Source of the DNA: Halichondria panicea
Taxonomy: Eukaryota > Porifera > Demospongiae > Suberitida > Halichondriidae
NCBI RefSeq assembly: GCF_963675165.1
Contig: NC_087377.1
Location: 15,992,198-16,056,197 of the forward strand
Direction: 5' to 3'
Length of the DNA stretch: 64,000 nt
Shown: positions 4,629 through 57,173 of the stretch, piece by piece
How the letters are laid out: the number at the start of each line of letters is the position of its first letter
Numbering within the stretch: the first letter of the stretch is position 1
Made by a program: the position numbers and the translations under genes
The notes under the pieces: model-generated
Database searches by the model: none
Told to the model about the DNA's origin: nothing
The model's input: the letters and a program-made list of their open reading frames with translations, nothing else

Positions 4629-7600
4629 CTAATTAGCACTTATAGAGAAGAAATCAACAGTTTGAGTATTGGTAAGTGCATCTGTCTGTCCTCCGGCTAC
4701 AATGACCTCTCCACTAGGAAGTACTGAGCATGTGCAGTTGAGTCGTGCAGTAGGCAGGTCTCCCACTTTCACCCACCTCCTGGTGTCAGGCTGGTAGAGG
4801 TGGATCAATGAACTTGGGTTGACATTGTCGTCCCATCCACCAACGGCTAATAGTGACCTCCCAATACTGAGAGGAGCTGACCGCACGAGTGGTACTTCCT
4901 GTAAGGTCTGCCAGAGAGTGGGTGTGTCCAGGTTCGAATGGGCCTTTGCAACGAGTTCAGTGAGGTCGACGTGGTACACTGTCTTGGTTGCACTCAGAGT
5001 GTGATTGTACCCTCCCATTAGGTAGAGGGTGTTTCCTATGAGAGTCGATTTCAGTACTGATCGTGGGTTAGGTAGTGACTGAGCAATGTACCATCTTCTT
5101 GATGCCACGTCCAACACCTCCACAGAGGAGAGGGCACGTACTTTATCATCACACCCACCAGCTACAATGATGTGGTTGTTGAAGGAGACAGCTGTTGAGG
5201 AATAACGAGCAATGTTCATTGGTGGGTACGGGTGAGTCCATTCCCCTGATTCAAACACTGCAAGTTGATTGGTGGGTTTTTTGTTTCTTGAATCATGTCC
5301 TCCCACCAGCACTAGTCGATTAGCGAGTGATGTCATAGCGAACCTATAGGCAGTGTACTCTGGTAGTTTGGTCCATTGATCTTGCTCGAGCTTCATCACT
5401 GTACACTTGTCACGATCACCGTATGCAATCCCTCCACCAACATACACTGTGTCACCGATAACAACACTCTGTACCGAGAAGCTCATCTTGATTGGCATGT
5501 ATTTTCCTATTCTCCATTTCAGAGTGAGTGGAGGTCTCAACTCTCTGGGAGGGGGACCCTGAATAATGAATGAGTGTAATTAGGATAGTGTCTACTAACA
5601 AGCGAGTGTTACTTGTAGCAATAATTGCATGCACACTAAATCACTTTCTCTAATTAGCTTAAGAGGCCACGCCCACCAGTCTAATAGAATGTACAGTACG
5701 ATTATAAGAGATCAAAGCTTCTACTATAGCTCTGCAATAATATAATGGTGCATTTTGTGTCACCAGTCTCTGCTGTTGAATGATGGCGTCTCTCCTGACC
5801 AGCTCAGCATCTTTGTGCTCAGTCTGTCCCCCGTGTGCCTGTACAGGGGAACGTTGGTGGAAATCAAACACAGACGTGAATATCATTAATGAAAATTCTA
5901 CAACAGAACGAGACAATCTTCACTAAAGGAAGTACATAATTATAGGCACACTCAAACGGATGTGTAGTTACGGCTTAACACATGAGACAGCATCCATGCA
6001 TGTTAAGGTACAATACTATTGTTGCTGTGGGAATCTCATTATCACACTACATGTACGCACCTTCTTGACTGGTTGAGGGTCCTTTGACTCCCTCTTTGTT
6101 TCCTCCACTGGGTCCGAGCCACTTGTCAGGTCAACATCTGCAGTCAAGTTATTATCTGGTTGAGTGTCCACCCGAGGTTGTATCTGTAGAAACTTCACTA
6201 GATGATCAATTTCTCTGGGTTGAACTTCAAACTGTTCTTGTTGAGGAGTGGTCACTTCTTCTAGTCCACAAACTTGCTCAGCTTGAAGCCGATCGATAGA
6301 TGCTTGTGAATGGGTGTCTTTCTCAGATACTTGATGTAAAAGTTGATTTACTTGAGTGTCCTTGAACTCCCTCTTTGTTGCCTCCACTGTGTCAGAGTCG
6401 CTTGTCAGTGAAGAATCTAAAGTAAAAGTTAAATCTTCAATAAGGAACTTTTTCCAAACAAAATGTCGGAATCGTAGACTCATAAATTATTTGCGATAAA
6501 ATGTACAACACATGTATTTAATTGACTCACAGATGTCCCTGGCAGATGGTCTCCTCCTCATGTCTTCTTGCAAGCAACTGTCGATAAGCTTCCTCAACCT
6601 GTGTGTGTGAGGGATCTGAGCAACATGGAATGATCGATCTTCCACAGATTTGACCGTCTTCAGCTTCTGAACAATCTGTACCATAATCACCCCAAGGGAA
6701 AAAACATCGACGCTATTATCGTAATTCTCCTTATCCAATCGAATAGCCTCGAGAGGTAGATACCCCATACGGTGACCAATGGCTGTGAGGGTGTGGCTAA
6801 GCTTGGAGGGATCGTATAGCCGTGACATACCAAAGTCGGAAATTTTTGCGATAGGCACTGGCTGTGTTAGCTTCAGCAAGACGTTATCGCCACAGAGGTC
6901 ACGGTGGATAATCTTCTTGCTATGAATGTAGGCCAGACCACAAGCCATGTCTTTGGAGAGGCTAATTTCACATTCGCTAGTGAGGGACTCTTCACCAAGG
7001 CTGGAGAAATAGGATCTCAGATTGCAATCCATCAGCTCAACAACGAGGATTGTACCACCTGATTTGGGATGCTTGGCAGTCGACAAATACAGAACAACGT
7101 TTGGGTGCTGGAGTGACTGGAGAAACTCACACTCACGATCAAATGCTTTGCTGGCTTCTTCACTTTTGCCGGTTGGGAAACCTGTCTGTATCTCTACAGC
7201 CTCGTAAATTAGAAGTTTGACTGCACAAATCTTGCCCCTGTAGCTGCCTTTGAAGACTGCTCCAAATGCACCTTTACCTAGTAGTTCGTCTAGGAAAACA
7301 GTTAAATCATCATTGATCTTCTGGTGATTTTCGTCAACTGTAAAAACATTGTGTGTGTGTGTGTGTGTGTGTGTTTATGAGAGGGACCCGGGTGAATATT
7401 ATAGAAGCTAGCTAATAAACTAAGCATCATGTATGAGATATGCATCCCTGTGCTGAACTAGTGCTTACCCTCTGACTTCACATCAGTAGGATTGCTTGCA
7501 TCAGTAGACTGTAGATGATCTTTCTCGATGGTCCTGGCTATGTCACTGTGGCCCACAATGGGACTTGACAAAGCTTTGACAACATCTTCCCAGCTTCTCT

Positions 7601-7793
7601 CACCACCTTTCAGCCATTCTTTTAAACCCTCACGATAGCAGTCATCAGGATCATCTCGCCATTTTGTACCAATGCTGTCAATGGTATCCGAAGATATTTT
7701 AAGAACCAGCAAGAAGTTTCGCCACTTGATTCGAGCATCAAACGTAGCTATGTATAGATCTCCTAGATCTGCTATTGTGAGATAGTCAGACAT
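4629..7793 (-). CDS. Death-kinase-coiled coil-kelch protein, copy A
   Basis: Five exons: 7793-7469 (Death domain), 7337-6531 (kinase), 6416-6057 (linker), 5897-5764 (coiled coil), 5558-4629 (kelch). Phases agree throughout, giving 851 residues. The kinase has a GKGAFGAVFKG glycine loop, AVK lysine, HRDLCGDN catalytic loop, DFGMSRL and LPLEA in place of APE, so it resembles the TKL group. Catalytic Asp and Asn are present, but the Lys usual after HRDL in TKL/Ser-Thr kinases is Cys. The kelch part has six GG-containing blades. The linker exon is 279 bases longer than in other copies and adds Gln/Glu-rich sequence. The usual coiled-coil acceptor is destroyed, but an upstream TGTTGTAG keeps frame. 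Likely a cytoplasmic signalling protein; binding partner unknown. Confidence 0.75.
7345..7372. repeat. GT microsatellite in Death-kinase intron (A)
   Basis: Simple TG repeat in the intron between the Death and kinase exons. The same intron carries longer runs in copies D (36777-36843) and F (56713-56774). Confidence 0.9.
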
Positions 7794-8130
7794 CTTCTCT
7801 GTAGAGTGTGGAATAAGATAAACAATGATATGAAGGTACATGTAATTATGTATAAATATTTGGTGTGTGCAAATTATATCATCAAAACCATGTACCTTAG
7901 ATCTATATGCAGAAAATAAAACAGTTAGTGCTGTCTGCACTTACTGATAATAATCCAGAGCTACAGTATCTTCACAGCTTGATACCAGGCACGATACAGA
8001 AATACAGGACAACAGCTAGCTCAGCTACAACGTTAACGAGACCCGCCCTCTTTCTCTGCAGAATACACAATAGCTGTCACATGCGATAACATTGCTAAAC
8101 CACGTGGCTGGTCTTTCACTTCTAGAGCTA
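7794..8130. promoter_or_regulatory. Divergent spacer of unit 2 with E-box
   Basis: Head-to-head spacer between copy A and the u2 5' exon. One intact CACGTG lies at 8101-8106. The upstream E-box seen in other units is CACATG here (about 8078). Promoter role inferred. Confidence 0.5.
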
Positions 8131-14442: not shown

Positions 14443-17267
14443 CTAATTAGCACTTATAGAGAAGAAATCAACAGTTTGAATATAATCAATTTCTGTCTCT
14501 CCTCCGGCTACAATAACCTCTCCACTAGGAAGTACTGAGCATGTGCAGGTGTATCGTGCAGTAGGCAGGTCTCCCACTTTCACCCACCTCCTGGTGTCAG
14601 GCTGGTAGAGGTGGATTGATGAAATTAGGTTGAATCTGTCGTCCGCTCCACCAACGGCTAATAGCGACCTCCCAATACTGAGAGGAGCTGACCACACGAG
14701 TGGTACTTCCTGTAAGGTCTGCCAGAGAGTGGGTGTGTCCAGGTTGGAAAGGACCTTTACAATGAGTTCATTGAGGTCAACGTCATGCACTGTCTTGGTT
14801 GCCCTCCCAGTGTGATCGTGCCCTCCCATTAGGTAGAAGGTGTTTCCTATGAGAGTCGATTTCAGTCCTGATCGTGGGTTAGGTAGTGAGCAATGTACCA
14901 TCTTCTTGATGCTACGTCCAATACCTCCACAGAGAGGGGGTGGGTCCTTTATCATCACGCCCACCAGCTACAATGATGTGGTTGTTGAAGGAGACAGCTG
15001 TTGAGGAATCACGAGCAATGTTCATTGGTGAGTACGGGTGAGTCCATTCCCCTGACCCAAACACTGCAAGCTGATTGGTGCGTTTGTTACTTGGATCATA
15101 TCCTCCAACCAGCACTAGTCGATTAGCGAGTGATGTCATAGCGAAGTACATGGCAGTGTACTCTGGTAGTTTGGTCCATTGATCTTGCTCGAGCTTCATC
15201 ACTGTACACCTATCACGACCATTGTCTGCAAACCCTCCACCAACATACACCGTGTCACCGATAACAACACTCTGTACCGAGCTACCCATCTTGATTGGCA
15301 TGTCTTTTTCTCTTCTCCATTTCAGAGTGAGTGGAGGTCTCAACTCTCTGGGAGGGGGACCCTGAATAATGAATGAGTGTAATTAGGATAGTGTCTAGCC
15401 AGTGTTACTTGTAGCAATAATTGCATGCACACTAAATCACTTTCTCTAATTAGCTTAAGTGGCCACGCCTACCAGTCTAATAGAATGTACAGTCCGATTA
15501 TAAGAGATCAATGCTTCTACTATAGCTCTGCAATAATATAATGGTGCATTTTGTCTCACCAGCTGTCTCTGCTGTTGAATGATGGCGTCTCTCCTGACCA
15601 GCTCAGCATCTTTGTGCTCAATCTGTTCACTGTGAGCCTGTACAGGGGAGCGTTGGTGGAAATTTTGAATTAAAACACAAACGTGAATATCATTAGTGGA
15701 ATTCTACAACAGAACGAGACAATTTCCGCTAAAGGAAGTACATAATTATAGGCACACTCAAACGGATGTGCAGTTACGGCTTAACACATGAGACAGCATC
15801 CATGCATGTTAAGGTACAATACTATTGTTGCTGTGGGAATCTCATTCACACACTACATGTACGCATCTCCTTGACTGGTTGAGTGTCCTTTGACCTCCTC
15901 CTTGTTGCCTCCACTGAACCAGAACCTCTCATCAAGTAAGCATCTAGAAAATCGATACCAACATTAATAAATACAAATGTGATTTTTTTCGTTAGGGTTA
16001 GAGTTATAGGGTTAGCTGAATTGTAAAACATGTAATTATAATTGACTCACAGATGTCCCTGGCAGATGGTCTCCTCCTCATGTCTTCTTGCAAACAACTG
16101 TCGATAAGTTTCCTCAACCTGTGTGTGTGAGGGATCTGGGCAACATGGAATGATCGATCCTTGGCTGATTTAATGGTCTCTAGCTTGCAAACAATCTGTG
16201 TCACAATCACCCCATAGGAAAACACATCCAGGCTACTATCGTATTTCTCTTCTTCCAATCGAATAGCCTCGAGAGGTAGATACCCCATCCGGTGACCAAT
16301 GGCTGTGAGGGTGTGGCTAAGTATGGAGGGATCATATAGCCGTGACATGCCAAAGTCGGATATCTTTGCGACAGGCATTGGTCGTGTAAGCTTCAGCAAG
16401 ACGTTATCGCCACAGAGGTCACGGTGGATAATCTTCTTGCTGTGAATGTAGGCCAGACCACAAGCCATATCTTTGGAGAGGCTAATTTCACATTCGCTAG
16501 TGAGGGACTCTTCATCAAAACCAGAGAAATAGGATCTCAGATTGCAATCCATCAGCTCAACAACGAGGATTGTACTCCCTGATTTGGGGTGCTTGGCAGT
16601 AGACAAAAACTGAACAACATTTGGGTGCTGGAACGACTTGAGAAAATCACTTTCACGATCAATTGCATCGCTAGCTTCTTCGTTTTTGCCGACTGAAATA
16701 CTTGCCTGCATCTCCATAGCATCGTGAAGCAGCACTTTGACTGCACATATCTCGCCCCTGTAGCTGCCTTTGAAGACTGCTCCAAATGCACCTTTACCAA
16801 AACGCTCGTCTAGGAAAACAGTCAAATCATCGTTGATCAACTGGTGATTTTCGTCAACTAAAGAATATTGTGTGCATGAGGGTTGAAAGATAACGTATTA
16901 ACATGTATAATCTACGGTATAATCATGTATTAATGTGCCATTGGTACTTACTTTGTAATTTGATTCTTTTAGGATTGCTTGCACTAGGATGATCTTTCTC
17001 AATGGTCCTGGCTATGTGAACTTCACCCATGATGGGACTTGACAAAGCTTTGACAATATCTTCCCAGCTTCTCTCACCACCTTTTAGCCATTCTTTCAAA
17101 CCCTCACGATAGCAGTCATTAGGATTGTTGCTCCAATCTTTCCCAATGCTGTCGATGGTATCCGAGGGTATCTCAAGAACCAATAAGAAGTTTCTCCACT
17201 TGATTCGAGCATCAAACGTAGCTATGTATAGTTTTCCTAGATCTGCTATTGTGAGATAGTCACACAT
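14443..17267 (-). pseudogene. Death-kinase-kelch, copy B (broken)
   Basis: Exons corresponding to Death 17267-16952, kinase 16857-16051 (open; GKGAFGAVFKG, HRDLCGDN, DFGMSRL), linker 15943-15863, coiled coil about 15660-15560, and kelch about 15361-14443. The coiled-coil exon has lost the TTTAG acceptor (TTTTAATTCAAA), and the alternative acceptor used by A, C and D leads to a stop. The kelch exon is frameshifted near 14900-14960, splitting it into two ORFs. A Death-kinase product without kelch is conceivable, but the full protein is not encoded. Confidence 0.7.
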
Positions 17268-24176: not shown

Positions 24177-26981
24177 CTAATTAGTGCTTATAGAGATGAA
24201 ATCAACAGTTTGAATACTAGTAAACGCTTGAATAATTTTATAATTAATAAAATCAATTTTTGTCTCTCCTCCGGCTACAATAACCTCTCCACTAGGAAGT
24301 ACTGAGCATGTGCAGTTGTATCGTGCAGTAGGCAGGTCTCCCACTTTCACCCACCTCCTGGTGTCAGGCTGGTAGAGGTGGATCGATGAACTTGGGTTGT
24401 GTCTGTCGTCCGCTCCACCAACGGCTAATAGTGACCTCCCAATACTGAGAGGAGCTGACCGCACGAGTGGTACTTCCTGTAAGGTCTGCCAGAGAGTGGG
24501 TGCGTCCAGGTTGGAAAGGGCCTTTGCAATGAGTTCATTGAGGTCGACGTGGTGCACTATCGTGGTTGCCCTTCCAGTGTGATCGAACCCTCTCATTAGG
24601 TAGAGGGTGTTTCCTATGATAGTCGATTTCAGTGATGATTGTGGGTTAGGTAGTGACTGAGCAATGTACCATCTTCTTGATGCCACGTCCAACACCTCCA
24701 CAGAGGAGGTACGTTCTTTATCATTACGCCCACCAGCTACAATGATGTGGTTGTTGAAGGAGACAGCTGTTGAGGATTCACGAGCAATGTTCATTGGTGG
24801 GTACGGGTGAGTCCATTCCCCTGCTTCAAAAACTGCAAGTTGATTGGTGCGTTTGTTGTTACTTGGATCACGTCCTCCCACCAGCACTAGTCGATTAGCG
24901 AGTGATGTCATAGCGAACCACATGGCAGTGTACTCTGGTAGTTTGGTCCATTGATCTTGCTCGGTCTTCATCACTGTACACCCGTCACGATCATTGTCTG
25001 CATCACCTCCACCAACATACACCGTGTCACCGATAACAACACTCTGTACCGAGCCACCTATCTTGATTGGCATGTCTTTTCCTCTTCTCCATTTCAGAGT
25101 GAGTGGAGGTCTCAACTCTCTGGGAGGGGGACCCTGAATAATGAATGAGTGTAATTAGGATAGTGTCTACTAACAAGCGAGTGTTACTTGTAGCAATAAT
25201 TGCATGCACACTAAATCACTTTCTCTAATTAGCTTAAGAGGCCACGCCCAGTCTAATAGAATGTACAGTACGATTATAAGAGATCAAAGCTTCTACTATA
25301 GCTCTGCAATGATATAATGGTGCGTTTTGTCTCACCTTTCTTTGCTGTTGAATGATGGCGTCTCTCCTGACCAGCTCAGCATCTTTGTGCTTATTCTGTT
25401 CCCTGTGTGCCTGTACAGGGGGGTGAAAAAATTCTACAACAGAACGAGACATTCTTCACTAAAGGAAGTACTGTAACATAATTATAGGCACACTCAAACG
25501 GATGTGTAGTTACGGCTTAACACATGAGACAGCATCCATGCATGTTAAGGTACAATACTATTGTTGCTGTGGGAATCTCATTATCACACTACATGTACGC
25601 ACCTTCTTGACTTGTTCAGTGTCCTTTGACTCCTTCTTTGTTGCCTCCACTGGGTCCGAGCTTGTTGTTAGGTAAGTATCTAAAATCGATACCAACATTA
25701 ATAGACGGATATGATTTTTTCGTTAGGGTTACAGTTAGCTGAAACGTAAAACACATAATATACTTATCATTGACTCACAGATGTCCCTGGCAGATGGTCT
25801 CCTCCTCATGTCTTCTTGCAAACAACTGTCGATAAGCTTCCTCAACCTGTGTTTGTGAGGTATCTGGGCAACATGGAATGATCGATCTTCCACAGATTTG
25901 ATCGTCTTCAGCTTGCAAACAATCTGTACCATAATCGCCCCAAGAGAGAACACATCCAAGCTATTATCGTAATTATCCTTGTCCAATCGAATAGCCTCGA
26001 GAGGTAGATACCCCATACGGTGACCAATGGCTGTGAGGGTGTGGCTAAGCTTGGAGGGATCGTATAGCCGTGACATGCCAAAGTCGGATATCTTTGCGAC
26101 AGGCACTGGTCGTGTAAGCTTCAGCAAAACGTTATCACCACAGAGGTCACGATGGATAATCTGCTTGCTGTGAATGTAGGCCAGACCACAAGCCACGTCT
26201 TTGGAGAGGCTAATTTCACATTCGCTAGTGAGGGACTCTTCATCAAGGCCGGAGATATAGGATCTCAGATTGCAATCCATTAGCTCAACAACGAGGATTG
26301 TACTCCCTGATTTGGGGTGCTTGGCAGTCAACAAAAACTGAACAACATTTGGGTGCTGGAACGACTTGAGAAAACCACTTTCACGATCAATTGCATCGCT
26401 AGCTTCTTCGTTTTTGCCGACTGGAATACTTGCTTGCATCTCCATAGCATCGTGAAGCAGCACTTTGACTGCACATATCTCGCCCCTGTAACTGCCTTTG
26501 AAGACTGCTCCAAATGCACCTTTACCGAGACGCTCGTCTAGGAAAACAGTCAAATCATCGTTGATCAACTGGTGATTTTCGTCAACTAAAGAATATCGTG
26601 TGCATGAGGTTGAAAGATAACGTATTAACATGTATAATCATGTATTAATGTGTCATTGGTACTTACCCTGTAATTTTATTCTTTTAGGATTGCTTGCACT
26701 AGGATGATCTTTCTCGATGGTCCTGGCTATGTGAACTTCACTCACGATGGGACTTGACAAAGCTTTGACAACATCTTCCCAGCTTCTCTCACCACCTTTC
26801 AGCCATTCTTTCAAACCCTCACGATAGCAGTCATCAGGATTGTTGCTCCATTCTTTCCCAATGCTGTCGATGGTATCCGAGGGTATTTTAAGAACTAGCA
26901 AGAAGTTTCTCCACTTGATTCGAGCATCAAACGTAGCTATGTATAGACACCTAGATCTGCTATTGTGAGATAGTCAGACAT
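24177..26981 (-). CDS. Death-kinase-kelch, copy C (Death exon frameshifted)
   Basis: Exons: Death 26981-26667, kinase 26585-25779, linker 25679-25599, coiled coil 25433-25336, kelch 25133-24177. The Death exon lost one base near 26950 relative to copy B, so the reading from the first ATG ends after about 14 residues. All later exons are open and in phase. The kinase keeps GKGAFGAVFKG, AVK, HRDLCGDN and DFGMSRL; the kelch exon keeps six blades and has a longer end before the stop. An in-frame start inside the first intron could give a kinase-kelch protein of about 650 residues without the Death domain; this is speculative. Confidence 0.6.
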
Positions 26982-29401: not shown

Positions 29402-29415
29402 AACATTAACAAGGT

Positions 29416-34379: not shown

Positions 34380-36775
34380 TTAATCGCTTCTACAAAAGAA
34401 ATCAACTATTTGAACATAAATACCAAGTAGTTTTGTCTGTCCTCCGGCTACAATGACCTCTCCACTAGGAAGCACTGAGCATGTGCAGCTGTATCGTGCA
34501 GTAGGCAGGTCTCCCACTTTCACCCACCTCCTGGTGTCAGGCTGGTAGAGGTGGATCGATGAACTTGAGTTGTCTCTGTCGTCCCGTCCACCAACGGCTA
34601 ATAGTGACCTCCCAATACTGAGAGGAGCTGAATGCACGAATGGTACTTCCTGTAAGGTCTGCCAGAGAGTGGGTGTGTCCAGGTTGGAAAGGGCCTTTGC
34701 AACGAGTTCAGTGAGGTCGACGTGGTGCACTGTCTTGGTTGCTGCAGTGTGATCGTACCCTCTCATTAGGTAGAGGGTGTTTCCTATGATAGTCGATTTC
34801 AGTGATGATTGTGGGTTAGGTAGTGACTGAGCAATGTACCATCTTCTTGATGCCACGTCCAACACCTCCACAGAGGAGGTACGTTCTTTATCATCACGCC
34901 CACCAGCTACAATGATGTGGTTGTTGAAGGAGACAGCTGTTGAGGAATGACGAGCAATGTTCATTGGTGGGTACGGGTGAGTCCATTCCCCTGACTCAAA
35001 CACTGCAAGCTGATTGGTGCGTTTGTTGTTTCTTGGATCACGTCCTCCCACCAGCACTAGTCGATTAGCGAGTGATGTCATAGCGAACCACATGGCAGTG
35101 TACTCTGGTAGTTTGGTCCATTGATCTTGCTCGAGCTTCATCACTGTACACCCGTCACGACCATTGTCTGCATCACCTCCACCAACATACACCGTGTCAC
35201 CGAACAACACTCTGTACCGAGAAGCTCATCTTGATTGGCATGTCTTTTCCTCTTCTCCATTTCAGAGTGAGTGGAGGTCTCAACTCTCTGGGAGGGGGAC
35301 CCTGAATAATGAATGAGTGTAATTAGGATAGTGTCTACTATAACAAGCGAGTGTTACTTGTAGCAATAATTGCATGCACACTAAATCACTTTCTCTAATT
35401 AGCTTAAGAGGCCACGCCCACCAGTCTAATAGAATGTACAGTACGATTATAAGAGATCAAAGCTTCTACTATAGCTCTGCAATGATATAATGGTGCGTTT
35501 TGTCTCACCTTTCTCTGCTGTTGAATGATGGCGTCTCTCCTGACCAGCTCAGCATCTTTGTGCTTATTCTGTTCCCTGTGTGCCTGTACAGGGGAACGTT
35601 GGTGAAAAAATTCTACAACAGAACGAGACATTCTTCACTAAAGGAAGTACTGTAACATAATTATAGGCACACTCAAAGGGATGTGTAGTTACGGCTTAAC
35701 ACATGAGACAGCATCCATGCATGTTAAGGTACAATACTATTGTTGCTGTGGGAATCTCATTATCACACTACATGTACGCACCTTCTTGACTTGTTCAGTG
35801 TCCTTTGACTCCTTCTTTGTTGCCTCCACTGGGTCCGAGCTTGTTGTTAGGTAAGTATCTAAAATCGATACCAACATTAATAGACGGATATGATTTTTTC
35901 GTTAGGGTTACAGTTAGCTGAAACGTAAAACACATAATATACTTATCATTGACTCACAGATGTCCCTGGCAGATGGTCTCCTCCTCATGTCTTCTTGCAA
36001 ACAACTGTCGATAAGCTTCCTCAACCTGTGTTTGTGAGGTATCTGGGCAACATGGAATGATCGATCTTCCACAGATTTGATCGTCTTCAGCTTGCAAACA
36101 ATCTGTACCATAATCGCCCCAAGAGAGAACACATCCAAGCTATTATCGTAATTATCCTTGTCCAATCGAATAGCCTCGAGAGGTAGATACCCCATACGGT
36201 GACCAACGGCCGTGAGGGTGTGGCTAAGCTTGGAGGGATCGTATAGCCGTGACATGCCAAAGTCGGATATCTTTGCGACAGGCACTGGTCGTGTAAGCTT
36301 CAGCAAAACGTTATCGCCACAGAGGTCACGGTGGATAATCTTCTTGCTGTGAATGTAGGCCAGACCACAAGCCATGTCTTTGGACAGGCTAATTTCACAT
36401 TCGCTAGTGATAGACTCTTCACCAAGGCCGGAGAAATAGGATCTCAGATTGCAATCCATCAGCTCAACAACGAGGATTGTACCACCTGATTTGGGATGCT
36501 TAGTAGTCGACAAATACAGAACAACGTTTGGGTGCTGGAGTGACTGGAGATACTCACACTCACGATCAAATGCTTTGCTAGATTCTTCACTTTTACCGGC
36601 TGGGAAACCTGTCTGCATTTCTACAGCCTCGTAAATCAGAAGTTTGACTGCACAAATCTCGCCCCTGTAGCTGCCTTTGAAGACTGCTCCAAATGCACCT
36701 TTACCGAGAGGTTCGTCTAAGAAAACAGTTAAATCATCGTTGATCTTCTGGCGGTTTTGGTCAACTGTAGAACAT

Positions 36776-36815
<40 letters not shown>

Positions 36816-37239
36816 GGTGTGTGTGTGTGGGTGTGTGTGGGGGGGGTGAATATTATAGCAGCTAACGAACTAAGCATTATGACTGTATGATTCCTGTGCT
36901 GAACTAGTGCTTACCCTCTGACTTCACATCAGTAGGATTGCTTGCATCAGTAGACTGTAGATGATCTTTCTCGATGGTATTAGCTATGTCAACGTGGCCC
37001 ACAATGGGACTGGACAAAGCTTTGACAACATCTTCCCAGCGTCTCTCTTCACCTTTCAGCCATTCTTTCAAACCCTCACGATAGCATTCATCAGGATTGT
37101 CTCGCCATTTCGTACCAATACTGTCGATGGTATCCGAGGGTACGTCAAGAATAAGCAAGATGTTTCGCCACTTAATTCGAGCATTAAACGTGACGAGGTA
37201 CAATTTCTTTAGATCTGCTATTGTGAGATAGTCAGACAT
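34380..37239 (-). pseudogene. Death-kinase-kelch, copy D (kelch frameshift)
   Basis: Exons: Death 37239-36915, kinase 36764-35958, linker 35858-35778, coiled coil 35612-35509, kelch 35301-34380. Splice phases hold through the coiled coil. The kelch exon lacks two bases near 35203 (CCGAACAAC against CCGATAACAAC), which shifts the frame early in the first blade; the rest is open from MLFGDTVYVGGG. A Death-kinase protein with only the start of kelch is the expected product. The kinase N-lobe resembles copy F, while the C-lobe and downstream exons are almost the same as copy C. Confidence 0.65.
36777..36843. repeat. GT microsatellite in Death-kinase intron (D)
   Basis: Interrupted TG repeat ending in a G run. 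Confidence 0.9.
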
Positions 37240-37576: not shown

Positions 37577-40500
37577 ATGTATTGCCTTGGATGTGGCAGT
37601 GACATAGCTGATAAACTGAAGGACAGCCGGAATGTGAACACCTCAAGCTCTGAAAACGTTGCAGCAGTATGGAAAGCATTCTTAGAAAATGAAGACCAGC
37701 AGGCTGCAGATGTCGACAGCATCCTCAATGGTGGAGACAGCCAAAGAGTGCCCAAGATGTGCAAGAATTGCTTCTATTCTTACAATAGGTACACCAAACT
37801 TCATGACAAACTCCAAGAAAACATTAGAAAGGCCGCTGATGTTTTGGAACTACAACTCCCACTGCCAAAGAAACGTAAGCTTGATAGTTCACTGTCTTGG
37901 CAAACAACTAGGGCTCAGCCATCAGGATCTAGCACCCAGTCCCCTGAAGTTGCGGTGGGTGCCATTAATATTCATTTTATAAGTCATTAAGTCTAGTTAT
38001 TTTTACAGATTAAAGTGTGTTACAAAACTCCAAAAACATTCCTGCTCACTCCTAGCCGAAAACACATAGGAAAAGCTATTGCTCGTAAAAGCAGAAAAAA
38101 AGTTGCTATGGAGGCCTTAAAAGACCCAACCACCAGAAAATACTTATTGAAGATGGTCGGGATAGAATTGGCCAAAGAAGTGAAATGTATGTCATCAGAG
38201 AGTGCTAACTCTATCTTGCAGAGCCAGAATCCTGATGACCTTAGACAATTCAGCTGGGAAATGCTACTGAACGAGCTCTCTATGTTTGCCCCTGTGTTGA
38301 GACAACTCCTGGATTTAGCCACTAACACCAGAGTCCGCCGTTCCAACACTGATGCTGTCATTGGGATGTGTGCAGCCATCCTTATCAACCATCGCAATCC
38401 AAAGATGAATTTGGTCCAACGAAGCAATGCCCTGGTTCTGTATGCTGGTCACAGCTCAAAGCAGGTGATTAAAACGTTCCCACGCCAAGTTGTCTAAAAG
38501 AACGCTATAGATTGCCATTTTCACTTAATTTCAAATCTGCCCGGGAACGAGGCTATAGTATAATTATAATTACCGATATACAGACTGAGATTACTTTGTT
38601 TGCGAACGGTCGTATACTGTATAGGTCTATCAGCGACTACAGAGGTTAAATGTGACTGTATCACACTCTTCTGTGATTCGAATGCTAGACAAAGTTGGCG
38701 AAGGGTTTGATGCTCAGGTTAAGGAATGGAGAGATCGCCTTGTATCCACACTGGACAGTGGCAATGAAATTGTAAGAAATTTGTAATTATTAATTCTTTT
38801 TAAAAAATATTATACAGCAAATTCAGAGAGCCCCCTGGATCACTTGTGAGAATGACGATATTGATCGGCCCACAGCATCCACCAGTGATGATTCGGACAC
38901 GGACTCAGATTCTGACTCATCGTGGAAGAATTACTCACCCATCACCTCTGGGTCAGAAGACGAAGGTGATGATGATCTCAGGAGCAACTCCTCTTCAAGT
39001 GATGTGAGTAATTTTGACAGCAGTGATGAAGAAGATACTCCAAGTAACCTTCCTACTTCTGGACCTCTTCACCAGGGCTCAACTTCTAACGCACCACAAA
39101 CTGGAAATATGGCAGGCGTCACATCCAATAAACACACTAAGCAGCAAGGTGCACATGCATGCATTATGTATACTTTTTACTTTGTGTTTTTGCATATAGA
39201 TCATCCAACAATGTACCATTTGGTTGGTGATAATGTGGACAAAGGAATAAAACAGCGGTATATGAGAGTTGGTACCAGTAAGCCGGATGATATTCACTAC
39301 TTCCACTCCTATGCTGTCGGTGACCGAATTGACTTCATGAATCTCAGTGACCAAGTTATTCCGACTCTACAGCAAAATTCTGAACAAGTTGCTGTTTCCT
39401 TATTACCAACATCTGACGATGATCTCGCTCTTCGTAACAACATGTGTATTCTCATGTCCAGAATCCTCTACGAAAACATGGGATTCTTCAATCTAGCTTT
39501 TGATGGTGTCGTAGATTGGCACATCAAGCATCAATTCTATGACGAGATGTCAACAAAGTCAAAAGTGGTTAGTAAGACATTTTATTGTGCTTAAACAGGT
39601 TTTTTAATCTTAACTACAATTTTCACACATTCATTAGCACCCTCTCGGAATTCTACCTAAAGACGAAAACAAAACCGAGCACATGATTGACATAATGTCT
39701 GATTTACAGCAATATGTTCCTATGGTGGAGATGGTCAAGGACTTCTATATTCCAACTATAGCCAGGACTGTGCCAGTGGTGACTGCTCGAGCTTATCTCT
39801 TACACTTTGCAGGGGACCAAAAGACTGCGGCTAGGGCGAGAGGAGCACAGAAGGCCAAAGTGAATGAAGTGTCTCCTTCCGGCCAACTGGTTGGATTAGT
39901 CCCTGTTGCAACTGATTGGCACACAAAAGTGATATTGTTGAATGTAAGGTGCTAATATTTATATATAGGGTTTGTAAATATTCACCTCTTTCGATACAGG
40001 TTATCTGGAAGTTTTTCTACTCTTACAATTCATCAGGAGACCATGGTACACTCTACCAGATCCGCAACAAGCTGAATCGCACAAATGTGGTGAAGAGTCC
40101 CAAAAAAGATGTCAATGCCTGTGAAGACTTCATTGAGATAGTGACTGACAGTCTTGTTGTTGTTGCCGCTCTTGCTACCTTTCAACTAAAGTCTGCAAAT
40201 GACACCCCTGTTGAATCCTTCCTTCCGACGGATATTTGGACTCTGTCTGACAGTGAGAGACGCGAGTGCTTGATAAAGCTCTGTGAAAAGGTCTATGACA
40301 AATTCGTGCATTTCAGCTACAACACGAGTGTGAGAGTGTTAACAGGTGATGATCAAGTGTGTGAGTACTCAGTGCAGCTGTTGCGTCTTGGATGCTTCTA
40401 CATGGAGTTCAAAGATGCTATTAGGGAAGGTGATGGTGAGCGTGTGTTGAGGTGCTGGAAGTACATGATACCCATATTTTCGGCTTCTGGGAACAGGAAC

Positions 40501-40983
40501 TACGCTTGCGAGGCAGCAAACCTCCTTTTACAACACAAGTACACACTTTCCCCTAGATTGTCAGCACAGCTTATGTGGAGTCGTTTTGTGAATACCACTG
40601 GCCGACCTGGGAAGAACATTCCTGTAGACCTACACATGGAGCACCTAAATAAGATAGCTAAAGGCGCTATTCGATTTCAGGGCTCCAATCGATCAATAAA
40701 AGCGATTAAACGAATTGGCAGAGCAATTGGGACACTTTCTCCAATGCTTGACAACTTTGACTCTGTCAACCATGTTACTACTACATCCAGCAGACAAAGA
40801 AAGCCTAATTCACAGAAGGACATCCATGTGGTAGTCAATGAACTTGTAGAAAGTCAATCATTTGTTATAATACGCAAGGGAAGAAAGCATCGTAAATTTT
40901 CCCATCCAAAGGATGTTTTGAATGGCAAAGAGAAGAAAACAATCGTTGACTGGCTTATGAGTAAATTGCCTACCTCCTTTTGA
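37577..40983 (+). CDS. DUF6589-like putative transposase
   Basis: Seven exons in consistent phase: 37577-37954, 38009-38464, 38625-38771, 38818-39148, 39200-39567, 39638-39943, 40000-40983, giving 989 residues. It starts with a candidate zinc knuckle (YCLGCGSDI ... CKNCF). An acidic Ser/Asp-rich region near residues 330-400 is followed by a conserved-looking core beginning GDNVDKGIKQRYMRVG and HYFHSYAVGDRIDF. The GDNVD...HYFHSYAVKDR pattern is what I associate with DUF6589 proteins of transposon origin. Which acidic residues form the active site cannot be decided from one sequence. The start was chosen as the first ATG preceding the CxxC motif. Confidence 0.65.
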
Positions 40984-41066
40984 TTGAACCTTGGACTTTA
41001 CTCAAAACTTATTATTTTATTGGCCTCATGCTTCAATTCATTATTTTGTTGATCAACATTAATTGA

Positions 41067-42557
41067 TTAGTTGTTGAATAACAGAAATGAATGAAGATTT
41101 GCTTTACAATAACCACAAACACAAGAATGTGCACATATATCACAGCACATGCACTTAAAGACAATACTAATGGGACTACTGTAGTTATCCATATTTCCAA
41201 AAAGGGCATCTCGTCTACACAGAGTCATGTTGGACACATACGTCTTAATTTCATCATCAACAGGGTGGTATGTTCTCGACTTCAACAGGGTGGCCATTGA
41301 TGTTTTACCATCCCTTCCAGCCCGTCCAGTCTCTTGCAAATAGCTACTAATATCATCACATAGCCCCACATGAACAATTTGCCTGACATCGGGACAATCA
41401 ACACCCATCCCAAAGGCTACAGTTGCAACAACAATCCTCAGATTTCCATCAATTTTAAATAAACGTAAAATTTGCGACTTGTGATTGGAGTCTGTCACAC
41501 TGGTAAACATGTCAACCAAACGGAATTCTGGGATATCAGGTGCATCTTCTGGAATGGTAAACGCTGATCCTAGATGATACTTCAGAAAAATGTATATGTC
41601 TGCACACATTCCAAATGACTGTCCATAGATGATGGTCTTTGGAAATTTAGAACTTTGTACCTTGAGTTTGTCAGCCAATGCTCTGAACGTTTCTTCCACA
41701 CTCTTAAATGACCCCACTGAATAGATCAGATTTGGTTTAGTTGGGTACCTTGTGAGAACGTATGGGTTCCTTAACCCTATTGCACGACTCACTGCTAAAC
41801 GGTCACTTCGAGTGGCAGTCGCTGTCAGAGCCATCACACGTACAGCTGGTGGAATTAGGCTGCGTACTTCACCAATTCGTTTCAGTACATGACGGAAAGT
41901 GTCACCCCTAAATATTCAGAATGAAGGGTTAATCACAGCACACGAACGTAAAGTACCATAAACCTTACCATTTCTTAACACAATGAGCCTCATCAATCAC
42001 GAATGCTTTGAGCCTATTTGCATACACCTCCGCTTGTATGACTCTTCTCCACCTATTATTAATAATTATCATCTCAGGTGTGAAAAACACCAACTGGTAC
42101 TCTCCCCGCTCAACTCCAGACTGAATTCTGCTGTCAGTAATTTCACCAGAGATGTAGGTACTGGAGAGACCTTTACTCAAATACGTTGCTACCTGCATGC
42201 ATGTATAATGTGCAGATCATCTTGAAACCTTCATCATGCACACATCTATTTAAGTACTACAATTAACAACAACTTACACCATTTAGAATCTACCTGGTCT
42301 TTCATGATGGCTAAAAGAGGAGTCACAACCACCACAATTGAATGCCCTACTTCCTTCTTCAAGATCTTGTCAAGGGCTACTGGCAAGCAGGCATAACACA
42401 AGCTCTTTCCAAAGCCGGTTGGAAGAACAGCAAACACATCTCGACCTTCAATAAAAGCCAGAACTATATCAACTTGTTCAGGCTTCATGACAGGGTAGCC
42501 CAACTCTTTGGAAGCCTCAATGACACACTCCCTAATAAACTCTGATCTCTCCATCAT
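41067..42557 (-). CDS. RecQ-like DNA helicase of the transposon
   Basis: Three exons, 42557-42297, 42192-41969 and 41907-41067, in phase, giving 441 residues. Superfamily 2 motifs in order: Walker A LPTGFGKSLCYACLP, TPLLAIMKDQV, DEAH within FVIDEAHCVKKWGDTFR, ALTATAT, VATVAFGMGVDCPDV and QETGRAGRDG. A Cys-rich zinc-binding-like tail follows (CMCCDICAHSCVCGYC). There is no visible HRDC or nuclease domain, so it is shorter than cellular RecQ proteins. Being inside the inverted repeats and convergent with the transposase suggests a role in element replication or excision. Confidence 0.85.
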
Positions 42558-49005: not shown

Positions 49006-51942
49006 TTAATCGCTTATACAAAAGAAATCAACTGTTTGAACACAATTACCAAAATTTGGGTCTGTCTGTCCTCCGGCTACAATGACCTCTCCACTAGGAA
49101 GCACTGAGCATGTGCAGCGATATCGTGCAGTAGGCAGGTCTCCCACTTTCACCCACCTCCTGGAGTCAGGCTGGTAGAGGTGGATCGATGATCTTGGGTT
49201 GCGTCTGTCGTCTCGTCCACCAACGGCTAATAGTGACCTCTCAATACTGAGAGGAGCTAAGAACACGAGTGATACTTCCTGTAAGGTCTGCCAGGGAGTG
49301 GGTGTGTCCAGGTTGGAAAGGGCCTTTGCGATGAGTTCATTGAGGTCGACGTGATGCACTGTCTTGGTTATCCCAGTGTGATCCCACCCTCCCATTAGGT
49401 AGAGGGTGTTTCCTATGAGAGTCGATTTCAGTTCTGATCGTGGGTTAGGTAGTGACTGAGCAATGTACCATCTTCTTGATGCCACGTCCAACACCTCCAC
49501 AGAGGAGGTATATCCTTTATCATCATGCCCACCAGCTGCAATGATGTGGTTGTTGAAGGAGACAGCCGTTGAGGAAGAACGAGCAATGTTCATTGGTGGG
49601 TACGGGTGAGTCCATTCCCCTGACTCCAACAGTGCTAGTTGATTAGTGCATTTGTTGTTTCTCGGATCAGTTCCTCCCACCAGCACTAGTTGATTAGCGA
49701 GTGATGTCATAGCAAACCACTTGGCAGTGTACTTTGGTAGTTTGGTCCATTGATCTTGCTCGAGCTTCATCACTGTACACATGTCACGATCATTGTCTGC
49801 ACTACCTCCACCAACATACACCGTGTCACCGATAACAACACTCTGTACCGAGCCATCCATCTTGATTGGCATGTCTTTTCCTCTTCTCCATTTCAGAGTG
49901 AGTGGAGGTCTCAACTCTCTGGGAGGGGGACCCTGAATAATGAATGAGTGTAATTAGGATAGTGTCTACTAACAAGCGAGTGTTACTTGTAGCAATAATT
50001 GCATGCACACTAAATCACTTTCTCTAATTAGCTTAAGAGGCCACACCCACCAGTCTAATAGAATGTACAGTACGATTATAAGAGATCAAAGCTTCTACTA
50101 TAGCTCTGCAATAATATAATGGTGCATTTTGTCTCACCTGTCTCTGCTGTTGAATGATGGCGTCTCTCCTGACCAGCTCAGCATCTTTGTGCTCAATCTG
50201 CTCACAGTGAGCCTGTACAGGGGAACGTTGGTGGAAATCTAAAACACAGACGTGAATATCATTGTGGAAATTCTACAACAGAACGAGAACAATCAACAAT
50301 TTGCGCTAAATGAAGTACATAATTATAGGCACACTCAAACGGATGTGTAGTTACGGCTTAACACATGAGACAGCATCCATGCATGTTAAGGTACAATACT
50401 ATTGTTGCTGTGGGAATCTCATTATCACACTAAATGTACGTACCTTCTTGACTTGTTCAGTGTCCTTTGACTCCTTCTTTGTTGCCTCCACTGTGTCCGA
50501 GCCTCTTGTATCTAAAAGAAAGATTATAGGATATCAAGTTGGCCAAACACTCATACCTTTAGTGTCCTTCATTTGAGTGAAGGTTGTCGTGCTCGTCCTT
50601 GTGTCTTTAGACATCTCCTCAACACCTTTTAGTTTGAGTTTGCTCAGATCCCTGTACGTGACATGTACATACTTGTAATTATTATAATAATACGAATATT
50701 ATATTCATGTAACTAAATTATAGGGCCCATGCTTGTTAATTAAGTTATGGTATAATTATGCGGAGTACGGGTACATAGTGCCTCTTCAAGAACTTACTGT
50801 TCCAGCAGAAATGTCTCCACCTCATCCGTACTTCCACAGGTGAGAACTTTGACCCCCATCGCACTGAGAGCTGCCTGTACAGTAGGGGACACTGGGTAGA
50901 TACGCTTGGCAACAGCTACAGTGACGAGAAAGTGGAGCTCCAAGCAGCCTTGTTTGATTGAACAGAGTTGTAGCGCTGCTCTTTGTAGACCAAGTGCTTC
51001 AGCAATTCTCGGAGTCAGCCTTTTCACATACTCCAGTGTGGCTATTCGCTCAGTGCACTTGATAACAAACACTTTAGCCGTTTTGATACGAGATTTTGAA
51101 GAGAAAGCTTCGGCCGGAACTTCAAACACATTTCGCTGGCAGAACTGATCAAGTGCAGAGCAATACTCACGCAGTTGTGTTTGGTCGTCTGGTGATCCCA
51201 GCAGCTCGATGAGGTACTCCACTATCTCATAGTTGAAAAAAGAGATGTAAGCACGTAGAGTCATGAAGACTTGGGCCAAATTTTTGGCATTTTTGATCTC
51301 TTGCCTATCTTCTGCATCTAGGACTTTAACTCCAATCCCGTCGTTGAAAGATTCGAGGCTGAGAACGGAATCTTTAATCTGATCCAAAGGGATCCGTTGG
51401 TTTTCAAATGATCTTTGTATAATTAGAGTAAAAGCAGTGAACCTAATAATCATTTTCCTTGTATCACGTATGAGCCGATCCTCCAATTCAATTCTATCAT
51501 CCTCATTAAGGCTAGAGGTGTCGAGGTGTGGGAAGCTGAAGGACGTCGGAGCCTCTGGTGGAGGTTGCTGGTGTGGGGGTGGAGAGAGTTGCGGCTGTTC
51601 AACACGGCTGGTCGCAGTCTTGTGACGCTCGTAACTATCATGTAGTTTCTTGACAACATCGTCAGTAGAAGGGCCAGCGATGGCAGCGATAAAGCCGTGG
51701 AATACACTGGGATTGAGCTTAATTCGATGGATGATAGTATCCAGAATCTTTCGAGATTTATCCGAGTCCATAACTCCATTCAGTCTAGAGTACTCGAGAA
51801 CTTCATCTGGTATGTAGCCATTGGAGAAGAGGCTATCAGCGTATGCAGCAGGTTGAGTTTTGAATGTGGACACCAATGCTTCAAAGTTCTCTTGGATGGA
51901 CAAATACTCAGGAGAATGATCGGGGGTTGCTTGAGTGGCCAT
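49006..51942 (-). CDS. CARD-like domain-coiled coil-kelch protein, copy E (exon-shuffled)
   Basis: Exons 51942-50798, 50651-50557, 50511-50440, 50238-50138 and 49932-49006 are in phase, giving 779 residues. The last three are the same linker, coiled-coil and kelch exons as in copies A-F. The Death and kinase exons are replaced by an exon with an N-terminal helical domain resembling CARD/Death-fold (residues about 12-100; SIQENFEALV ... NPSVFHGFIAAIAGPS), a Pro/Gln-rich spacer (about 118-135) and a second all-helical region ending LQLCSIKQGCLELHFLVTVA. The latter resembles a C-terminal module I associate with sponge Death/CARD proteins. All reading frames are open, so it is probably functional. 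The CARD-type call rests on pattern only. Confidence 0.7.
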
Positions 51943-52947: not shown

Positions 52948-53397
52948 TGCTGGAGAAGTGAGTGATAGCATGTCAGACAACTACACACATATTGGAGGTT
53001 TCTTTCTGAGAGCTTTGTTGACTTGTGTAGTCATCTGGTGTTGCAAACCTCCGATTTTATCGTATTTAATAGCATCTTTAATAGTGCTGCAATAATTATA
53101 GTGTGCTTAGATCAATAATAGTATTTATTTCAGGCCCAAATTGCAAATTGTACTTGAAAATAACCAGCTAAGCTATAACCTTCATAGTATGTGTTTGGAC
53201 CTGTGCCACCACCTACTGTTTCATTATAATATTAGTGCAATAAAGTACGTGTCTATGATGTTATGCTAAAACTCCCTTCTCACCTCTAGTCTAGTTTTTT
53301 TTATTGCTCCCGTTACTTGCTGCTTAGCCAGATCATATATACTATTGTATAACACTCCTCTGGTTTCTATAGTTATTTATGTCAACAGCCGAGGGTA

Positions 53398-53916: not shown

Positions 53917-54119
53917 GACTGTTAAATATTATTTTGTCTGTTTTTGTACTATTTTCTGGCAATGTAATTATGTATGTACCACTTCATGTCATCATAATAA
54001 CTATAATTATATGCGATAAAATTCTGTTGCAACTCAACACGATAAAAATAATATCAATATCGTTATAAACTCATCGCACAATTAAAGAGAAGCAATTAAC
54101 AAAATAACTAATTAGCACT

Positions 54120-54190
54120 TATAGAGAAGAAAACAGTTTGCAATTGAGCATAAATAAATGAATTTGCCTGTCCTCCGGCTACAATGACTT
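54120..54190 (-). pseudogene. Duplicated scrap of the kelch exon end
   Basis: A second, truncated copy of the last bases of a kelch exon (CCTGTCCTCCGGCTACAATG and the preceding stop region) lies just downstream of copy F. Confidence 0.5.
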
Positions 54191-54292
54191 TATATGAGAT
54201 AAAATTTATAATTATATTATGTGATAAAAATCTGTTGCAACTCAACATAATAATCAATATCGTTATAACTCATTGCACAATTAACAAAATAA

Positions 54293-56711
54293 CTAATTAG
54301 CACTTATAGAGAAGAAATCCACAGTTTGAATAATAGTATAACTGTTGGTCTGTCCTCCGGCTACAATGACCTCTCCACTAGGAAGTACTGAGCATGTGCA
54401 GTTGTATCGTGCAGTAGGCAGGTCTCCCACTTTCACCCACCTCCTGGTGTCAGGCTGGTAGAGGTGGATCAATGAACTTGGGTTGAATCTGTCGTCCACT
54501 CCACCAACGGCTAATAGTGACCTCCAAATACTGAGAGGAACTGACCACACGAGTGGTACTTCCTGTAAGGTCTGCCAAAAAGTGGGTGTGTCCAGGTTGG
54601 AAAGGTCCTTTGTAATGAGTTCATTGAGGTCGACGTGATGCACTGTCTTGGTTACCGTCCCAGTGTGATCGTGCCCTCCCTTTAGGTAGAGGGTGTTTCC
54701 TATGAGAGTTGATTTCTGTCCTGATCGTGGGTTAGGTAGTGACTGAGCAATGTACCATCTTCTTGATGACACGTCCAACACCTCCACAGAGGAGGAGATA
54801 CGTCCTTTATCATCACGCCCACCAGCTACGATGATGTGGTTGTTGAAGGAGACAGCTGTTGAGGAATGACGAGCAATGTTCATTGGTGGGTACGGGTGAG
54901 TCCATTCCCCTGACCCAAACACTGCAAGCTGATTGGTGTGTTTGTAGTTTCTTTGATCATATCCTCCCACCAACACTAGTCGATTAGCGAGTGATGTCAT
55001 AGCGAACCAATAGGCAGTGTACTCTGGTAGTTTGGTCCATTGATCTTGCTCGAGCTTTATCACTGTACACGCGTCACGATCATTGTGTGCATAGCCTCCA
55101 CCAACATACACTGTGTCACCGATAACAACACTCTGTACCGAGCGACCCATCTTGATTGGCATGTCTTTTCCTCTTCTCCATTTCAGAGTGAGTGGAGGTC
55201 TCAACTCTCTGGGAGGGGGACCCTGAATAATGAATGAGTGTAATTAGGATAGTGTCTACTAACAAGCGAGTGTTACTTGTAGCAATAATTGCATGCACAC
55301 TAAATTACTTTCTCTAATTAGCTTAAGAGGCCACGCCCACCAGTCTAATAGAATGTACAGTACGATTATAAGAGATCAAAGCTTCTACTATAGCTCTGCA
55401 ATAATATAATGGTGCATTTTGTCTCACCTGTCTCTGCTGTTGAATGATGGCGTCTCTCCTGACCAGCTCAGCATCTTTGTGCTCAATCTGCTCACAGTGA
55501 GCCTGTACAGGGGAACGTTGGTGGAAATCTAAAACACAGACGTGAATATCATTGTGGAAATTCTACAACAGAACGAGAACAATCAACAATTTGCGCTAAA
55601 TGAAGTACATAATTATAGGCACACTCAAACGGATGTGTAGTTACGGCTTAACACATGAGACAGCATCCATGCATGTTAAGGTACAATACTATTGTTGCTG
55701 TGGGAATCTCATTATCACACTACATGTACGCACCTTCTTGACTGGTTGAGTGTCCTTTGACTCCCTCTTTGTTGCCTCCACTGTGTCTAAGCCCCTCGTC
55801 AGGTCCGCATCTAAAGTAAAAGAAAATCGATACCAACATTATGACTTTTTCGTTAGGGTTAGCAAAAACATAAAACACATACTTAATTAACTCACAGATG
55901 TCCCTGACAGTTGGTCTCCTCGTCATGTCTTCTTGCAAGCAACTGTTGATAAGCTTCCTCAACCTGTGTGTGTGAGGGATCTGGGAAACATGGAATGATC
56001 GATCCTTGGCTGATTTGATCGTCTCCAGCTTGCAAACAATCTGCGTCACGATCACCCCATAGGAAAACACATCCAGGCTGCTATCGTATTTCTCCTCTTC
56101 CAATCGAATAGCCTCGAGAGGTAGATACCCCATACGGTGACCAACGGCCGTGAGGGTGTGGCTAAGCTTGTAGGGATCGTATAGCCGTGACATGCCAAAG
56201 TCGGAAATCTTTGCAACAGGCACTGGCTGTGTTAGCTTCAGCAAAACGTTATCACCACAGAGGTCACGGTGGATAATCTTCTTGCTGTGAATATAGGACA
56301 GACCACAAGCAATGTCTTTGGAGAGGCTAATTTCACATTCGCTAGTGATAGACTCTTCACCAAGGCTGGAGAAATAGGATCTCAGATTGCAATCCATCAG
56401 CTCAACAACGAGGATTGTACCACCTGATTTGGGGTGCTTAGTAGTCGACAAATACAGAACAACGTTTGGGTGCTGGAGTGACTGGAGATACTCACACTCA
56501 CGATCAAATGCTTTGCTGGCTTCTTCACTTTTACTGGCTGGGAAACCTGTCTGCATTTCTACAGCCTCGTAAATTAGAAGTTTGACTGCACAAATCTCGC
56601 CCCTGTAGCTGCCTTTGAAGACTGCTCCAAATGCACCTTTACCAAGAGGTTCGTCTAAGAAAACAGTTAAATCATCGTCGATCTTCTGGCGGTTTTGGTC
56701 AACTGTAGAAC

Positions 56712-56763
<52 letters not shown>

Positions 56764-57173
56764 GGGGGGGGGGGTGAATATTATAGCAGCTAACAAACCA
56801 GAACTAAGCATTATGACTGTATGATTCCAGTGCTGAGCTAGTGCTTACCCTCTGACTTCACATCAGTAGGATTGCTTGCATCAGTAGACTGTAGATGATC
56901 TTTCTCGATAGTCCTGGCTATGTCACTGTGGCCCACAATAGGACTTGACAAAGCTTTGATAACATCTTCCCAGCTTCTCTTACCACCTTTCAGCCATTCT
57001 TTCAAACCCTCACGATAGCATTCATCAGGATTGTCTCGCCATTTCGTACCAATACTATCGATGGTATCCGAGGGTACGTCAAGAATAAGCAAGATGTTTC
57101 GCCACTTAATTCGAGCATCAAACGTGACGAGGTACAATTTCTTTAGATCTGCTATTGTCAGATAGTCAGACAT
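54293..57173 (-). CDS. Death-kinase-coiled coil-kelch protein, copy F (intact)
   Basis: Exons 57173-56849, 56702-55896, 55810-55730, 55528-55428 and 55222-54293 join in phase to 747 residues. Death domain about 1-100 (WRNILLIL, IDSIGTKW, YREGLKEWLKG, WEDVIKALSSP). Kinase about 115-370: glycine loop near 129, AVK Lys near 149, HRDLCGDN near 253, DFG near 276, LPLEA in place of APE. Charged linker about 378-404. Short coiled coil about 405-438 (EHKDAELVRRDAIIQQQRQ). Six kelch blades about 450-740, each with a GG doublet. The start ATG is conserved in all copies. Likely a cytoplasmic adaptor-kinase whose propeller binds a ligand; substrate unknown. Confidence 0.8.
56713..56774. repeat. GT microsatellite with G run in Death-kinase intron (F)
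   Basis: Long pure TG repeat followed by about 14 G. It is antisense CA when read in the gene. Confidence 0.9.

Follow-up and report, generated by a model that had tools for sequence, protein, structure and literature searches.

Kelch-propeller genes with a hypervariable predicted binding face: a probable germline repertoire of intracellular receptors in the sponge Halichondria panicea

A 64-kb piece (hereafter the window) of an 18.1-Mb contig of the demosponge Halichondria panicea (NC_087377.1, positions 15,992,198 to 16,056,197; genome of 131 Mb in 39 contigs) carries on its minus strand six kelch exons, five kinase exons and five Death exons, distributed over genes that we call A to F. The kelch exons belong to a family of at least 126 such exons in their own genome (460 candidates scored; exons B and D fall outside this list), 104 of which form two opposed arms of one 1.9-Mb stretch. 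We consider it probable that this family is a germline repertoire of intracellular receptors, in which short-tract conversion reshuffles a selected kelch binding face that is coupled to several heads, Death-kinase among them. Each gene would end in one kelch exon encoding a near-fixed six-bladed scaffold on which some 20–25 ligand-face residues vary, with selection for difference acting at the face and short-tract gene conversion shuffling its residues among copies. Inside the cell, the propeller may bind a foreign or non-self protein and so cluster the heads, and Death-domain assembly together with kinase activity may then lead to an immune or incompatibility response, as in fungal propeller receptors.

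The variation was located in an alignment of 130 kelch exons, in which identical copies were kept, L133 and L136 (other kelch families), L025 (identical with exon F) and the frameshifted exons B and D were excluded, and L134, L135, L137 and L138 were first cut to their longest stop-free piece. Among the 315 columns scored, including seven that are intron read-through (the first seven residues of the kelch open reading frames, LHSFIIQ), 25 exceeded 2 bits and held up to 16 residue types, the scaffold being otherwise almost invariant. Relative to the leading G of a GG doublet, all 25 lie 15 or 14 positions ahead of it or 2 or 4–9 positions past it; these GG-anchored places make up 54 of 316 positions (hypergeometric p = 2.4e-22), a set drawn after the variable columns were known and a p value that is therefore descriptive. 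The initial annotation, made on the six window exons, had described near-identical kelch exons with changes clustered at matched places of the blades, and this description extends to the whole alignment. Its residue lists for the second, third and fifth blades and for IAR-x-SST, codons included, were reproduced in six of six exons, and that for the fourth blade in five of six, the search pattern having missed exon B; variation was seen, too, two residues ahead of FAMTS (Y,M,M,M,K,Y) and immediately ahead of CTCS (N,T,N,S,R,N).

No column above 2 bits was found in the kinase (22 copies), Death (14) or coil (23) exons, and kelch subsamples of 22 and 14 copies gave means of 19.7 and 16.8 such columns. 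The 21 exons outside the main array had 19 columns above 2 bits, 18 of them among the same 25. Across 20 hypervariable sites, 119 unique exons carried 108 distinct strings, and the entropy summed over these sites in the 94 main-array copies was 53.8 bits.

Six GG motifs and Pfam kelch matches (Kelch_1 at E 2.9e-28 in exon A and 8.4e-24 in exon F) define, by sequence, a six-bladed kelch propeller; the sole WD40 match in these two exons, in A, reached E 0.18. The best PDB matches of the kelch exon include NS1BP, KLHL12 and KEAP1. In kelch propellers, loops of the kind that vary here lie on one face. When KEAP1 was anchored without gaps on the same GG doublets, its contacts Ser363, Asn414, Arg415, Ile461, Ser508, Ser555 and Ala556 fell at the same places before GG, Tyr334, Arg380, Phe478, Tyr525 and Tyr572 right after GG, and Asn382, Arg483 and Phe577 in the loop. 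These residues are NRF2-peptide or inhibitor contacts according to PMC6891428; Gln530 and some glycines were counted as contacts in addition. Of the 25 hypervariable columns, 16 fell among the 30 that carry a KEAP1 contact in some blade (p = 6e-13), this contact set too being drawn after the variable columns were known. These coincidences support a placement of the varied residues at the ligand face of the predicted propeller. The alternative of sites scattered over buried positions disagrees with their clustering and with their coincidence with KEAP1 contacts, burial being judged by homology alone.

The nonsynonymous-to-synonymous ratio (dN/dS, omega) was estimated on 119 copies (7021 pairs, copies treated as a sample), after removal of L016, L032, L041 and L122, which contain stops (that of L032 and L041 being the intron acceptor), and of seven identical copies. 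Site classes (two core, loop, and rest) were set after the variable columns had been seen, and variable position 232 was kept in the rest. Nonsynonymous divergence was 1.05 and 1.03 in the core classes, 0.31 in the loop and 0.051 in the rest, with an exon-wide dS of 0.10. The dN/dS check proposed in the initial annotation was thereby borne out, with omega on exon-wide dS of 10.4 (9.5–12.2) and 10.3 (9.5–11.5) in the core classes, 3.1 (3.0–3.4) in the loop and 0.51 (0.49–0.54) in the rest (40 bootstraps over copies), values that recurred in 97 nearest-neighbour pairs (9.6 and 9.5, 3.1, and 0.58, respectively). Control exons of equal length gave 0.33 for kinase (16 of 22 copies), 0.33 for Death (13 of 14) and 0.56 for coil (14 of 23). 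In 16 disjoint close pairs, nonsynonymous differences affected 34 of 389 hypervariable codons versus 80 of 4615 others (Fisher 1.8e-12), synonymous ones 3 hypervariable and 39 other codons, and 12 of the 37 differing hypervariable codons differed at two or three bases. Over the 240 bases 5′ of the kelch reading frame, which span the end of the coil exon and the intron, nucleotide diversity (pi) was 0.007–0.033 in 28 of 31 copies, the other three, omitted from this figure, carrying a different intron; it was 0.04–0.15 in 18 of 23 windows of 40 bases between bases 40 and 960 of the reading frame. The omega values and the contrast with the other exons support diversifying selection that keeps the binding-face residues different.

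A mutator aimed at chosen codons independently of selection, such as one resembling a diversity-generating retroelement, was considered since the third base of several hypervariable codons is near-fixed while the first two vary (in exon A numbering, C in 129/130 copies at site 34, T in 122/127 at 51, C in 126/130 at 253), with third-base variation at such sites below a selection-only simulation; this simulation (six runs a site, copies independent) overstates third-base change if codons spread by conversion. We consider targeted hypermutation very improbable. A base-specific mutator is hard to reconcile with near-fixed third bases that differ from site to site (C at 34, T at 51, G at 232, A at 147), sites 102, 191, 196, 233 and 249 exceed the simulation mean at the third base, and a few old codons spread by conversion would freeze third bases too.

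Differences at the 20 hypervariable sites rose from 4% in pairs with a background difference of 0.2–0.5% (4 pairs) to 72% at 2–3% (128 pairs), with a plateau near 80%. Between background sites (94 array copies, 52 sites), the squared correlation r2 fell from 0.10 at 1–5 bp to about 0.015 beyond 60 bp, 0.011 being expected for unlinked sites. Thirteen transversion-only sites agreed (r2 0.27 under 30 bp in 7 pairs, 0.014–0.022 at larger distances; all four gametes were present in 46 of 78 pairs), and recurrent transitions alone therefore do not explain the loss of linkage; 13 of the 54 background sites are CpG-like. Hypervariable sites were near-independent beyond about 8 residues (83 copies), with the exception of the pair 249–301 (z = 4.0), and gene neighbours were no more similar than distant copies. 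Linkage is thus lost across the 1.9-Mb array, and short-tract gene conversion would be the mechanism.

By position, a small predicted coil exon links the kelch propeller to its head, of which there are three kinds or more. Counted from hand-transcribed matches on the relevant contigs (114 of 151 for Death, 114 of 141 for kinase, 17 of 120 for a 382-residue module and 49 of 150 for a second kinase), with source lists that are lower bounds, the 126 kelch exons had 5′ of them Death and kinase in 67 cases, kinase only in 4, the second kinase with a coiled coil (read in one gene) in 40, the 382-residue module in 12, and no head found in 3; none of the 126 had two head kinds. The fixation index Fst between the two kinase-head classes was 0.004 for background and 0.002 for hypervariable sites (24 and 62 of 200 shuffles as high), and between the two arms, which thus differ slightly, 0.006 and 0.004 (6 and 27 of 200). 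The kelch exons of both kinase heads are one pool. Those with the 382-residue head (Fst 0.072–0.075) and those outside the array (0.086) were set apart (0 of 200 shuffles), the comparison of contig C1 with the others being made without L134, L135, L137 and L138.

The Death-kinase-kelch architecture that had been proposed for every gene stands for genes A to D and F. It fails for gene E, which has no Death exon within 6 kb and no kinase within 4.5 kb upstream, and has a 382-residue reading frame instead; likewise, the proposed Death-domain/kinase signalling fits the 67 exons with both parts, 4 more having the kinase alone, and does not extend to the exons with the other kinase, the module or no head. 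All five window kinase exons contain AVK, HRD and DFG, each with a Pfam kinase match at 6.3e-37 or below, and in the PDB one match alone, to an EGFR kinase, reached E 1e-18 or below. In Pfam the 382-residue module matched nothing at E values up to 1, and in the PDB its first 108 residues matched nothing better than E 0.3. Neither NACHT nor HET was matched in Pfam by the scanned Death, kinase, coil and kelch exons or the 382-residue module.

Kinase motifs in five of five window exons, together with PDB matches to NS1BP, KLHL12 and KEAP1 and the general knowledge that KEAP1/KLHL-type propellers bind endogenous partners, would also suit a family of endogenous substrate adaptors directing kinases towards numerous host proteins, the variation being subfunctionalisation. 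This explanation seems improbable to us: it predicts stable, lineage-bound specificities, whereas linkage between hypervariable sites is mostly lost over distances above about 8 residues and two head classes draw on one pool, and an omega near 10 is, as far as is generally known, unusual for adaptors.

Regarding the arrangement of the family, 54 kelch exons at 15.48–16.13 Mb are all on the minus strand and 50 at 16.71–17.39 Mb all on the plus strand; the remaining 22 lie on C6, C28 and C12 and at 11.0 Mb on C1. Near-identical copies occur in both arms. A mis-joining of haplotypes is not favoured as the origin of the opposed arms: identical pairs cross arms and also lie within one arm, nearest neighbours fall in the own versus the other arm in 27/27 cases from the minus arm and 26/24 from the plus arm, and no mirrored gene order between arms was seen by eye. 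Stops are present in 4 of the 126 exons, a list biased in favour of the best matches: two at codon 7 (the TAG of the intron acceptor), one at the last-but-one codon and one internal (codon 272). That internal stop and the broken exons B and D, like the near-identical copies in both arms, are what an assembly artefact could produce, or a tandem family drifting neutrally or decaying into pseudogenes, an explanation that we find scarcely credible given the background omega of 0.51, the non-scattered variation, and the fact that three of the four stops listed are at the acceptor or the last-but-one codon. The genome gave ten Wnt matches, with none in 14 control genomes, which points to an animal, and for COX1 just one short nuclear fragment containing two TGA. 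Elsewhere in it, several dozen kinase reading frames (many of 350–590 residues) related to the second-kinase tail lie at 0.87–3.3 Mb on C3 and could be a sister repertoire; exon clusters related to Death (5.9–6.14 Mb on C12) and to the 382-residue module (2.7–3.2 Mb on C5) were noted, as was a short tandem group of kelch reading frames (187–423 residues) at 0.693–0.707 Mb on C8, outside the family list.

Several points weigh against a receptor repertoire built as we propose. Pfam recognises the Death exon only weakly (6 of 14 copies matched up to E 1, best E 0.003); in favour of a Death domain, its profile matched nothing but FADD in the PDB set (11 of 11 matches up to E 10), though at modest scores (best E 0.005). 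The surface assignment is by homology with KEAP1. When each class was scaled on its own dS, omega fell to 4.7 and 4.4 in the core classes and 1.9 in the loop (0.56 in the rest), and the 30 closest pairs gave just 1.3 and 2.9 in the core and 1.2 in the loop, which suggests that reshuffling of old diversity, and not its rapid renewal, may be at work. The intron is not a clean neutral standard, since it is less diverse than synonymous exon sites (pS 0.084) and the 3′ flank varies as much as the exon. Two of the six window kelch exons (B and D) are frameshifted, and all results come from the sequence of one genome assembly, in which polymorphism is unseen.

With these points in mind, the view of the array as a diversifying recognition system, put forward in the initial annotation, is well supported, and its role may lie in innate immunity or allorecognition. 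A repertoire that scores self versus other individuals, rather than pathogens or symbionts, would agree with the tissue incompatibility shown by sponges, and its logic matches that of the fungal HNWD propellers as described in PMC12222747. We regard this version as rather unlikely: more than 100 loci would better fit a broad antigen repertoire than a few polymorphic allotype loci, and inspection of gene F by eye revealed neither a transmembrane segment nor a signal sequence. More tentatively, and at a level of confidence that we would call no better than possible, the kelch exons may constitute an anticipatory repertoire of some 100 or more intracellular receptors per assembled genome, with about 54 bits over 20 binding positions and a pool common to different kinase heads, perhaps with further somatic reshuffling that makes cells differ from one another.

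The layout of the window is given in Table 1. Four of the six kelch exons (A, C, E and F) are intact. Splicing was modelled for gene F, whose five joined exons comprise 738 codons with a stop only at the end, GT at four of four donors and AG at four of four acceptors, and encode in order a Death domain, a protein kinase, a short linker (77 nt), a 25-residue coil and the kelch propeller. CA/TG microsatellites in the Death-kinase intron abut the kinase exons of F, D and A (about 56712–56772, 36766–36852 and 7339–7374, respectively). Between genes D and E (38794–41915), a DUF6589 reading frame (39916–40983, plus strand) and a Helicase_C reading frame (41067–41915, minus strand) resemble mobile-element fragments, and 200 N at 58350–58549 possibly mark an assembly gap.

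Table 1 Kelch-family genes and exons in the window (window coordinates)
Feature	Position	Strand	Remarks
Gene F	54293..57173	-	Five-exon Death-kinase-linker-coil-kelch model, 737 aa
Gene F exons	56849-57173, 55896-56702, 55734-55810, 55428-55502, 54293-55222	-	Splicing inferred from sequence
Kelch exon A	4632..5579	-	Intact; coding from about 5558, past AG
Kelch exon B	14446..15382	-	Frameshifted
Kelch exon C	24180..25154	-	Intact
Kelch exon D	34386..35322	-	Frameshift near codon 40
Kelch exon E	49012..49953	-	Intact
Kelch exon F	54293..55222	-	Intact, stop codon included
Kinase exon, gene A	6517..7338	-	AVK, HRD, DFG motifs
Kinase exon, gene B	16040..16858	-	Motif and Pfam kinase match
Kinase exon, gene C	25768..26586	-	Motif and Pfam kinase match
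Kinase exon, gene D	35947..36765	-	Motif and Pfam kinase match
Kinase exon, gene F	55896..56702	-	Motif and Pfam kinase match
Death exon, gene A	7461..7793	-	Sequence match
Death exon, gene B	16947..17267	-	Sequence match
Death exon, gene C	26659..26949	-	Match without exon start
Death exon, gene D	36907..37239	-	Sequence match
Death exon, gene F	56849..57173	-	Sequence match, gene model
382-aa alternative N-terminal module	50797..51942	-	5′ of kelch exon E, replaces Death-kinase
25-aa coil exon, gene F	55428..55502	-	Joins head to kelch; similar sequence 5′ of other kelch exons

If our reading is right, these genes would be an animal hypervariable receptor system on the kelch fold, a role without precedent in the literature searched, and fungi would have arrived at the same design independently, with WD40 propellers. 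Animal recognition of self or of microbes would gain a candidate open to testing, and the binding faces would form a natural propeller library from which the residues that tolerate change can be read; a sensor exon swapped between unlike heads would also inform the evolution of receptor diversity in the absence of V(D)J recombination. The literature searched, which mostly excludes subscription papers and preprints, held no description of genes of this kind.

Among known systems, KEAP1/KLHL proteins share the kelch propeller, with binding residues at the same blade positions, where they serve a fixed partner; in the sponge family these positions are hypervariable, and the gene F exons scanned (Death, kinase, coil and kelch) contained neither BTB nor BACK. 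The order of a Death domain followed by a protein kinase is the IRAK/Pelle architecture, and the gene F model has it at its N-terminus, with a weak Pfam match of single Death copies; unlike IRAK/Pelle, it adds a C-terminal kelch propeller and an array expansion, and its Death profile matches FADD, not IRAK, in the PDB. The sea urchin 185/333 proteins are secreted element mosaics without a propeller or kinase. As a large and highly diverse animal gene family, proposed as immune in PMC1988830, 185/333 resembles the kelch family. Genes with kelch and, separately, genes with Death domains are among those that respond to microbial stimuli in two sponges, according to PMC6208332, a listing that is only suggestive for kelch receptors.

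The closest analogue is the fungal HNWD family (het-d and het-e of Podospora). As PMC12222747 describes them, these receptors have an incompatibility signalling head and a C-terminal WD40 propeller whose scaffold is homogenised by concerted evolution, a few hypervariable positions per repeat on a predicted interaction face under diversifying selection, and products that, in Podospora, recognise allelic HET-C variants. The kelch family likewise has a hypervariable face under diversifying selection, the face being assigned by KEAP1 homology and the signal being weaker in the closest pairs. It differs in being kelch and not WD40, Death/kinase and not NACHT/HET, and animal and not fungal; moreover, HNWD repeats are alike within one gene, whereas in the kelch family whole exons are alike across more than 100 genes. 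A propeller receptor with a variable face was thus already known, and it is the fold, the set of heads and the lineage that appear to be new.

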